This document shows, piece by piece, positions 26,478 to 29,367 of a DNA stretch of 51,478 nt. The translations under genes and the position numbers were made by a program. Numbering within the stretch: position 1 is the stretch's first letter; each line of letters begins with the position of its first letter. The notes under the pieces are model-generated. The model was not told where the DNA came from. It was given only the letters and a program-made list of their open reading frames with translations, and searched no databases. The stretch is from Candidatus Methanosuratincola sp. GTDB taxonomy: Archaea; Thermoproteota; Methanomethylicia; Methanomethylicales; Methanomethylicaceae. Where the stretch lies: contig JBBFLR010000010.1 in the NCBI GenBank assembly GCA_037478935.1, positions 1-51,478 of the forward strand. The letters run 5' to 3'.

Positions 26478-28961
26478 CTACTTCATCGCATCCCAAGTCG
26501 ACCTGATGGCCTCAACGAAGCGCTTCGTCGCCTCTTCGGGGTTCGCCGACTTTGTAATTGCCCCCCCGACGACCAGGACGCGCGCGCCTGCCTTGACCAT
26601 CTGGGGCACAACTTCGAGTTTTATGCCACCTGCAACCGAGACCGGGATCTTGAGGCTCCTGGCGAGGTTCTGAACGAGTGCGATCTTCTGGTCCACCTCC
26701 CGCTCCCTCGACTGCGCGCTTATGCCGACGTGCATGCAGACCATGTCAACGCCGAGCTTCTCTACCTCGAGCGCCCTTGAGAGAGGATCTTTGAGGTTCA
26801 TCAGATCGACCATCACCTTTACGTTGTACTTCCTTGCTGCGCCTACCGCGTCTGAGATCGTATAGTCGTCGGTTGCACCCATCACGGTGACGATGTCGGC
26901 CCCCGCTTCGACCGCTAGCTCGGTCTCTAGCCACCCGGTGTCGAAAGTCTTGAGGTCGGCCAGGATCGTCGCGTTGGGGCACGCCTTCCTGAGAGACCTC
27001 ACGGCGTTTAGCCCCTCCGACTTTATCAGCGGAGTCCCTGCCTCGATTATCTCTGCGCCCCCGCGATATGCCTTCTCGGCTATAGGTATGGCGTCCTTGA
27101 GGTAGCGCTCGTCTATCGCCACCTGGAGCTGAGGACCTTCGTATACCGGCTTCAGACCCAATTGGAGCACCTTCTTGCTGGACGGGATACCGTTGTAGTC
27201 CCAGCCTCTCACTGCATAGTACTCATTTAATAACCTATCCATGTCGACCGTCTCGCCCTTGGCAGGGCCGTCGGGCATAGGCACCTCGGTGAACCTCCTC
27301 GGGAGTACGTCGTCCTTTCTGCTAAAGCCCTCCCTCACGTTGAAGAGCCGCTCTATGTTGTAGATCCGCTCACCTATCCTGTAGAACTCCTCACGGTCCA
27401 CGTAGAAGCCTGTGGCGCAGGTGAGTAGCCGCGCGTAGAAGTCCGGTTCGAAGGCGAGTGTGCTGAAGAGCGCCATCGTCGTGTACTTGCAGAGGACGAG
27501 GGAGTCCAGCACCGCAAAGACGTCCTGCATCACCTTTGTGAGCACGGCCTTGTCATCGTATGTGTTCGGGTTCAGGTACCGCGGCATGCTCAGGATCTCC
27601 GGGACTATCATGAACGCCCTGAGGTGGCACCCTCCCCTGTTCGAGGTCGCGTACGAGAGGGCCATCCCCTTGACCCCCCTCGGGTCGTAGGCAGGGAGCT
27701 CGAGCCCCTTGACGTGGATCGCGAAATCCTCGGCCTCGAGCTTCTTTGCCGCGTCCCGGGTGCCCTCGGCCAGTAGGTCGCCGATGCCCTCTCGGTATGC
27801 CGTCATTCTGATTAGCTTGAGGAGCGCTTCAGCGTCCCCGAACTTTGCGTCCAAGCCTATGTCGGAGGGCTTTACCTTCCCCTTGTCGGCGCACGCCATG
27901 AGGAACCCCACGGCCTGGCCCATCGATATCGTGTCTACGCCGAGCTTGTTGCAGAGGTCGTTGGCGATCGCTATCGCATTCAGGTCGCTGATACCGCAGT
28001 TCGGGCCGAGCGCCCATACAGTCTCGTACTCCGGCCCTTCCGTCTCTATCGTCTCACCGCTCGGGAGGCGCGGCTGGGTAATCCTCCCGCACATGATCGG
28101 GCAGGCGAAGCAGCCCTTCTTTCCGCGGAGTATGGTCTTTGACATGTACTCACCGCTCACCTTCTCGGCGTCCTCGAAGACGCCTGTGCTGTAGTTCCTC
28201 ACGGGGAAGATCCCAGCCTTGTTTATGATGTGCACGAGGACGGAAGTCCCGTATCTGGCAAGGCCGTCACCCGTAATCGGGTGGCCCTTCAGTACCTGGA
28301 TTGTCCTCTTGACCTCCTTCATGAAGGCATAACGGTTCGCTAGAGGTATCTCGGCCTTTCCCCTGACCACGATTGCCTTTAGGTTCTTGGACCCCATCAC
28401 GGCGCCTACGCCGCCTCTTGCCGCGGTCCGGTGCTTCTCGTTCATTATCGCGGCGATTTTGACGAGCCTCTCCCCGGCCGGACCTATGCACGCAACCCTC
28501 GCGAAGGGATCCCCGACCATCTGCTTGAGCCGGTCCTCGGTCTGACCGGTTTCGAGCCCCCAGAGCGAGGATGCGTCGTTCAGGCGGGCCTCGCCGTTTA
28601 TTATGGACAGGTAGACCGGCTTGCTGCTCCTGCCTTCGAATATTATCCCGTCATAGCCCGCCCGCTTGAGCTCTACGCCGAAGTGCCCCCCGCTGTTGGC
28701 GTCGAAGATGGTCCCCGTGGCAGGCGATCTCGTGGAGACGGAAAACCTGCCTGAGGTGGGGGCCGCCGTCCCTGTGAGGGGCCCGGTCATGAAGACGAGC
28801 TTGTTCTCTGGACCGAGCGGGTCGGTCCCGGGCTTCAGCTCGTCGAAGAGTATCTTGGCGCCATAACCCCTGCCGCCTATGAAATCCGCGGCAATGTCCA
28901 AATCGAGTTCCTCTGAAGAGATCTCACCAGCCGTAAGATCAACGCGGAGTATTCTATTCAT
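26478..28961 (-). CDS. Fusion of tungsten aldehyde:ferredoxin oxidoreductase and 3-hexulose-6-phosphate synthase
   Basis: This 827-residue protein has two complete enzymes. Residues 1-611 are an AOR-family oxidoreductase: N-terminal MNRILRVDLTAGEISSE, pterin-binding GGHFGVELKRAGYDGIIFEG and NEKHRTAARGGVGAVMGSKNLK, and a [4Fe-4S] site at Cys284, Cys287, Cys291 (CFACPIMC) and Cys491, nearly the numbering of Pyrococcus AOR (288/291/295/494). The part ending RGWDYNGIPS is the family's usual tail. Residues 612-827 are HPS of the OMP-decarboxylase fold: ADLKTFDTG (catalytic D-x-K-x-x-D), VMVDLMNLKDPLSRA, CMHVGISAQSRE. ATG at 28961 is chosen because the family N-terminus starts there; the 62 upstream codons cross the promoter. 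It is divergent from a MoaD gene. Confidence 0.93.
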   Translation of the reverse strand: MNRILRVDLTAGEISSEELDLDIAADFIGGRGYGAKILFDELKPGTDPLGPENKLVFMTGPLTGTAAPTSGRFSVSTRSPATGTIFDANSGGHFGVELKRAGYDGIIFEGRSSKPVYLSIINGEARLNDASSLWGLETGQTEDRLKQMVGDPFARVACIGPAGERLVKIAAIMNEKHRTAARGGVGAVMGSKNLKAIVVRGKAEIPLANRYAFMKEVKRTIQVLKGHPITGDGLARYGTSVLVHIINKAGIFPVRNYSTGVFEDAEKVSGEYMSKTILRGKKGCFACPIMCGRITQPRLPSGETIETEGPEYETVWALGPNCGISDLNAIAIANDLCNKLGVDTISMGQAVGFLMACADKGKVKPSDIGLDAKFGDAEALLKLIRMTAYREGIGDLLAEGTRDAAKKLEAEDFAIHVKGLELPAYDPRGVKGMALSYATSNRGGCHLRAFMIVPEILSMPRYLNPNTYDDKAVLTKVMQDVFAVLDSLVLCKYTTMALFSTLAFEPDFYARLLTCATGFYVDREEFYRIGERIYNIERLFNVREGFSRKDDVLPRRFTEVPMPDGPAKGETVDMDRLLNEYYAVRGWDYNGIPSSKKVLQLGLKPVYEGPQLQVAIDERYLKDAIPIAEKAYRGGAEIIEAGTPLIKSEGLNAVRSLRKACPNATILADLKTFDTGWLETELAVEAGADIVTVMGATDDYTISDAVGAARKYNVKVMVDLMNLKDPLSRALEVEKLGVDMVCMHVGISAQSREREVDQKIALVQNLARSLKIPVSVAGGIKLEVVPQMVKAGARVLVVGGAITKSANPEEATKRFVEAIRSTWDAMK

Positions 28962-29088
28962 GTAACCGCCCAAGCGGTGGTCCTCCTGATGAATTAGGTG
29001 AGAGTCGGGGGCACACTTATATCTTTCCCGCTGCTGGTTATTTTTGCGGACGTGAAAACGGAGGATGATTCCCCAAGCGGTGGCCCAT
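28962..29088. promoter_or_regulatory. Divergent promoter region with 12-bp repeats between the AOR-HPS and MoaD genes
   Basis: CCCAAGCGGTGG occurs at 28969-28980 and again at 29072-29083. One copy lies over the translation-initiation region of the AOR-HPS gene and the other over the ribosome-binding GGTGG of the MoaD gene. CTTATATC at about 29014-29022 can serve as TATA in either direction. Paired repeats at both ends suggest joint control of pterin-sulfur carrier and enzyme. Confidence 0.45.
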
Positions 29089-29367
29089 ATGAGAGTGAAG
29101 GCGGAGTTCTTCGCCGACTTGAGGGAGAGGGTAGGCAGCCCGGCCATGGAGCTTCAGATTTCGGGCAGGACCGTGCTCGACCTGATAGAGGAGATCGACG
29201 CGCTCTCTGGCGGATCATTCATGATGCATGTTGTCGAGGGCGGCAGACTGAAGGACATGGTGAAGGTTTTGGTTAATGGCAGGGACGTGAGGGGGCTCAG
29301 GGAGCTGGACACCGAGCTCTCGGAGGGGGACGTCGTGTCATTCTTCCCTCCGGTAGCCGGCGGCTAG
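29089..29367 (+). CDS. MoaD/ThiS-like sulfur-carrier protein
   Basis: This 92-residue ubiquitin-fold protein ends in PPVAGG; the terminal Gly-Gly is the site activated with sulfur in MoaD. It has VKAEFFADLRERVG at the start, then TVLDLIEEIDAL, VKVLVNGRDVRGL and ELSEGDVVSFFPPVAGG, the MoaD pattern. Its job is to donate sulfur for the dithiolene of the pterin that binds tungsten in AOR enzymes, so its position next to an AOR gene is meaningful. Start ATG at 29089 with GGTGG six bases upstream; the longer frame is rejected. Confidence 0.88.
   Translation: MRVKAEFFADLRERVGSPAMELQISGRTVLDLIEEIDALSGGSFMMHVVEGGRLKDMVKVLVNGRDVRGLRELDTELSEGDVVSFFPPVAGG

Follow-up and report, generated by a model that had tools for sequence, protein, structure and literature searches.

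Archaea that make ribose by running 3-hexulose-6-phosphate synthase (HPS) in reverse release formaldehyde, the fate of which is not settled where Fae is missing. This question is raised by a gene in the window, the whole 51,478-nucleotide stretch of Candidatus Methanosuratincola DNA analysed here, in which an aldehyde:ferredoxin oxidoreductase (AOR) and an HPS are encoded as one protein. Because the protein pairs HPS with a candidate formaldehyde oxidase, and both sites are intact across several families, the question becomes testable on one purified protein.

The two domains lie in a single uninterrupted open frame on the minus strand (26478-28961, or to 28973 with a TTG start). The earlier note had proposed one reading frame for AOR and HPS together, and this was borne out: no interruption was found, and the same junction recurs in about 30 genomes. 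The proposed start was not retained; in place of ATG 28961, TTG 28973, located 12 nt upstream, is most likely the start codon, judging from the Shine-Dalgarno motif and from matching start codons in relatives. The motif AGGAGG was found at 28982-28987, 8 nt ahead of the TTG, and an ATG or TTG occupies the equivalent position in 16 of the 18 relatives compared, reading M-x-Gly-Tyr. Upstream of the fusion, the TATA-like element listed in Table 1 is kept in the closest relatives. Furthermore, a MoaD-family gene is the divergent neighbour of the fusion in every locus compared from families f1 (the family that includes Methanosuratincola, taken to be Methanomethyliaceae), f7 and f9 (Nezhaarchaeota). 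Its position is consistent with a pterin cofactor, and a role as helper for the tungstopterin cofactor of the fusion is plausible, if only suggestive.

Table 1. Coordinates of the AOR-HPS gene, its domains and adjoining features in the window
Feature	Position	Strand	Basis or remark
AOR-HPS fusion gene, complete	26478..28973	minus	831 aa with TTG 28973 as start; 827 aa with ATG 28961
AOR domain (AFOR_N + AFOR_C, residues 1-604)	27150..28961	minus	Pfam; PDB matches; residue mapping
HPS domain (residues 610-827)	26478..27134	minus	TIGR03128; PDB HPS 9lj9, 3ajx; model
Promoter-like TATA element AAAGATATAAG	29016..29026	minus	Upstream of fusion; read from sequence
MoaD/ThiS-family sulfur-carrier gene	29065..29367	plus	TIGR01687 moaD_arch, 73.4 bits (cut-off 49.5)

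The AOR half is complete, as had been claimed from the ligands Cys284/287/291/491. AFOR_N (residues 3-201, 281 bits) and AFOR_C (residues 217-603, 488 bits) were both matched at full length in Pfam, and residue mapping placed the 4Fe-4S ligands C284, C287, C291 and C491 on C288, C291, C295 and C494 of Pyrococcus furiosus AOR. Active-site residues E313 and H446 were also found, corresponding to the AOR test positions E313/H448 in P. furiosus numbering. The match to 1AOR extended over the whole length of the half at 606 bits, compared with 375 bits for FOR (1B25), which places it nearer the AOR than the FOR subfamily, a placement that does not by itself settle the substrate. The metal in this half would be tungsten. 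Within residues 497-511, which follow the C491 ligand, F499, E505, Y509 and R511 are conserved among the fused AORs but seldom present in unfused ones.

In the HPS half, the OMPdecase/HUMPS fold was detected at residues 610-815 (Pfam, 117 bits), the HPS structures 9lj9 and 3ajx were matched in PDB, and the fusion scored 208.5 bits with TIGR03128 (HPS), above the curated cut-off of 200. The D-x-K-x-x-D site, on which the claim of a full HPS domain had been based, was recovered as D669-x-K671-x-x-D674, and the remaining catalytic residues are D617, E640, D719, H744 and A777. In the alignment, D719 and A777 occupy the positions of KGPDC E112 and T169 and are the Asp and Ala typical of HPS; both positions are among the sites altered in the KGPDC E112D/R139V/T169A mutants named in PDB titles. 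AlphaFold modelled the HPS barrel at about 90 pLDDT, matching 3ajx at a TM of 0.92 of the target. Much of the AOR half was modelled too poorly for its geometry to be used, with many blocks at pLDDT 30-50 (mean 69, pTM 0.61), probably because just 25 sequences were supplied. Foldseek searches with the fusion model returned both AOR and HPS structures.

Comparison with known systems sets this architecture apart. The fusion shares all domains, the cluster cysteines and the active-site E and H with the AORs of P. furiosus (1AOR) and Clostridium autoethanogenum (9G7J) and with 9MQX, but known AORs stop where its HPS domain starts. FOR, a tungsten enzyme of a more distant subfamily, converts formaldehyde to formate, as proposed for the fusion. 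HPS-PHI runs in the reverse direction in archaea without a pentose phosphate pathway. Like the fusion, HPS-PHI (NF041755; 9LJ9) joins HPS to a pathway partner; however, that partner, PHI, acts upstream in the pentose-forming direction, whereas the partner in the fusion is an oxidoreductase able to act on the released formaldehyde. Fae-HPS (PRK13307/NF009833), which occurs in sister families (G001, G033 and a G008 copy cut at the contig end), joins HPS to a formaldehyde-capturing enzyme, but Fae passes formaldehyde to H4MPT without redox chemistry, while the AOR of the fusion would oxidise it to formate. HPS-RraA (PRK07028/NF005442) is also a two-domain HPS protein, although its partner is an RraA-like domain. 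The fusion fell below the cut-off of all of these models, scoring 200.1 bits with NF041755 (HPS part only, cut-off 500), 154.5 bits with PRK13307 (no Fae domain, cut-off 274) and 239.5 bits with PRK07028 (HPS part only, cut-off 593). HPS-RraA fusions were also observed in the same genomes as AOR-HPS (L122:4711-6009 and f7 and f9 relatives; L150). Hps-Phi is the one fusion that a survey of archaeal fusions lists for the fructose-to-ribose route. For Brockarchaeota, a formaldehyde route via separate AFOR and HPS was proposed (PMC8065059); there, the same cell also contains HPS, but as a protein of its own that is assumed to fix formaldehyde, in contrast to the one protein and reverse HPS proposed here. 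Within the open-licence literature, no paper combining AOR, HPS and fusion was found, in agreement with the earlier statement that no described AOR-HPS fusion was known.

The fusion is widespread among the relatives of the window's genome (G000; 1.52 Mb, 96.5% complete). The copy in the window shares 92-96% identity with the fusions of named Candidatus Methanosuratincola genomes, and the search of archaeal genomes suggested earlier recovered the architecture in about 30 of them, mostly at full length and on contigs of up to 1.3 Mb. All named genomes with the fusion are metagenome bins. In a contig scan, 17 fusions were full-length and two more were truncated by contig ends; they were distributed over Methanosuratincola, other Methanomethylicota, Nezhaarchaeota and one 'Thermoprotei' bin. 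Class-wide, the fusion was present in 26 of 40 genomes, three of these copies being split or cut at contig ends (G021, G031, G038); by family, it was found in f1 (17/22), f2 (G009), f7 (2/2) and f9 (6/6). Of the five f1 genomes lacking it, three have a completeness of 59-77%. Among 398 genomes of the phylum Thermoproteota, which was surveyed in greater depth than other phyla, four further families outside the class carry the fusion (G043, G045, G070, G156), with an HPS half 51-57% identical and the AOR half present; the G043 copy lacks its first residues, since its contig begins there.

Both active sites have been maintained throughout. The four cluster cysteines, E313, H446 and D486 of the AOR half, and D617, E640, D669, K671, D674, D719, H744 and A777 of the HPS half, are invariant in all 27 aligned fusions. 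The HPS domain starts where AORs normally finish, at a tight junction without a long linker. In 25 of the 27, 28 residues separate the RGW motif of the AOR from the start of HPS; L147 has 27 and L055 has 39. Against four close relatives, dN/dS was 0.024-0.047 for the AOR half and 0.010-0.032 for the HPS half; overall, these values of 0.01-0.05 indicate strong purifying selection on either half. In phylogenies, the fused AOR halves formed one clade against 29 unfused AORs (SH-aLRT 100), and the fused HPS halves likewise formed one clade (support 98), apart from the long-branched HPS half of G009. Because the latter falls near Fae-HPS proteins, a separate fusion event in G009 was weighed as a possibility, but a single HPS clade was not rejected by the AU test (p 0.49), and the G009 AOR half sits inside the fused clade. 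A single origin is therefore retained as the reading of these trees, G009 having perhaps evolved fast or undergone a domain swap. The G009 protein itself (L055:250-2715) is a divergent AOR-HPS in which the HPS half, at 108 bits under the family cut-off, best matches the Fae-HPS model, and a domain swap is possible; all catalytic residues and the fumarase neighbours are retained.

The gene content of the fused genomes bears on the metabolite that may connect the two domains. In the window's genome the fusion is the sole HPS, and PHI is encoded separately, away from it. The Fae/Mch route is the usual formaldehyde sink. Neither Fae (TIGR03126) nor Mch (PF02289) occurs in any of the 22 f1 genomes, the window's included, or in f2, and Fae is also missing from all four fused genomes outside the class. 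A strict mutual exclusion of fusion and Fae was considered and fails, because in f9 Fae coexists with the fusion in five of six genomes and Mch is present in four of six; the fusion is thus not a strict replacement for Fae, and both sinks can coexist. Nor does a lack of Fae mark genomes with the fusion, since several Thermoproteota outside the class have an unfused HPS and no Fae, which makes the fusion one solution and not a required one. Families f3, f6 and f8 have Fae-HPS proteins in place of AOR-HPS. As to pentose supply, the transketolase N-half is missing from several near-complete fused genomes (G009, G012, G028, G029, G030), in which reverse HPS would be the sole nameable pentose route. 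A second pentose route is possible in the window's genome and 12 further f1 genomes, each of which gave a strong match to the transketolase N-half. On the formate side, formate dehydrogenase scored above the cut-off only in G017, with weaker, functionally uncertain matches in G000 and several others. PurP (PF06973) occurs twice in each of the 22 f1 genomes; the two PurP-type genes are mostly in tandem, and in the window's genome they lie at G000:C13:9003-10602. Other, unfused AORs are also present in fused genomes.

The reading favoured here, to which we assign a probability of roughly 0.66, is that of a bifunctional enzyme making pentose phosphate with little free formaldehyde, the AOR domain oxidising formaldehyde to formate. 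Fructose-6-phosphate would be converted by the separate PHI to 3-hexulose-6-phosphate. The HPS domain, acting in reverse, would split this into ribulose-5-phosphate and formaldehyde, and the latter would be oxidised to formate by the tungsten AOR domain of the same chain, ferredoxin being the acceptor. This step would clear a toxic product and pull an unfavourable cleavage forward in cells without the Fae/H4MPT sink, and the formate would probably feed the formate-dependent PurP step of purine synthesis. We infer formaldehyde as the AOR substrate, the direction of HPS, the handover between sites and the use of formate. At equilibrium, HPS lies on the side of formaldehyde fixation; making pentose therefore requires a sink for formaldehyde, and its oxidation by ferredoxin is favourable. 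The context fits formaldehyde as the linked metabolite, given that the fusion is the sole HPS of the window's genome, PHI is separate, Fae and Mch are absent from the whole family and AORs are known to oxidise formaldehyde. A related X514 AOR oxidises formaldehyde with a Km of 93 uM and a Vmax of 25 U/mg, its Km for acetaldehyde being lower (PMC10816221), and a P. furiosus-type AOR was reported to yield formate from formaldehyde in vitro (PMC2718504). A more far-reaching version is advanced tentatively, as a possibility with the odds against it: formaldehyde would pass directly to the tungsten site of a pentose-and-formate synthase, giving one formate for the purine ring per nucleotide ribose. 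In methanogens lacking the C1 branch, it would thereby take the place of the Fae/H4MPT sink as well as of other sources of formate. A bifunctional enzyme would link pentose synthesis, formaldehyde removal, low-potential electrons and purine formate in archaea without the H4MPT C1 branch, and it would offer a design from nature for keeping formaldehyde in check in engineered RuMP pathways.

Several alternatives have to be weighed against this reading. The AOR half might act on other aldehydes, such as acetaldehyde or amino-acid-derived ones, with the fusion merely co-expressing two independent enzymes. Its place in the AOR and not the FOR part of the family and the lower Km of the X514 enzyme for acetaldehyde agree with this, but the product of HPS is itself an aldehyde, the separate unfused AORs of fused genomes are available for other aldehydes, and the fusion is old, with a near-fixed linker length and both halves intact in 27 sequences; this explanation is considered unlikely. 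The pair could also operate in the opposite direction, assimilating formate, in which case the AOR half would reduce formate with ferredoxin and HPS would fix the resulting formaldehyde onto ribulose-5-phosphate. Reducing formate to formaldehyde needs a potential below that of typical ferredoxin, and in the several fused genomes without a transketolase to regenerate ribulose-5-phosphate, pentoses need reverse HPS. Hence, even with fixation being the direction thermodynamically favoured by HPS and AORs being able to reduce acids with low-potential donors, formate assimilation is very unlikely.

Nor is it probable that one half is catalytically dead and serves as a scaffold or sensor. Nothing in the window sequence points that way and, whereas the divergent HPS half of G009 does, the listed catalytic residues are invariant there as well and both halves show very low dN/dS, making this very unlikely. 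An artefact of gene prediction or assembly could be suspected from the metagenomic origin of the named genomes, but it is refuted by the same junction being intact in about 30 independent genomes, also on long contigs.

One exception to the distribution within f1 bears on the formate part of the bifunctional reading. The near-complete genomes G013 and G014 lack the fusion, although they belong to the same genus as the fused G015, and carry instead one operon in which the genes for pyruvate formate-lyase and its activase come after that for an unfused HPS (L117:2153-5821 in G013, L116:5875-9549 in G014). The G014 lyase scored 1150.7 with TIGR01255 (cut-off 994.2), its activase likewise exceeded the curated cut-off, and the G013 lyase is 90% identical to that of G014. 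A pyruvate formate-lyase of this type was found in none of the fused f1 genomes. Pyruvate formate-lyase is another source of formate, and its exchange for the fusion fits the idea of the fusion as a formate supplier, as one event in one genus. The HPS-lyase locus of G014 also carries a MAT gene, which elsewhere is found near the fusion. In addition, a third, divergent type of unfused HPS on a long branch was observed in G014 (L115:7458-8120) and G010 (L119:5817-6482).
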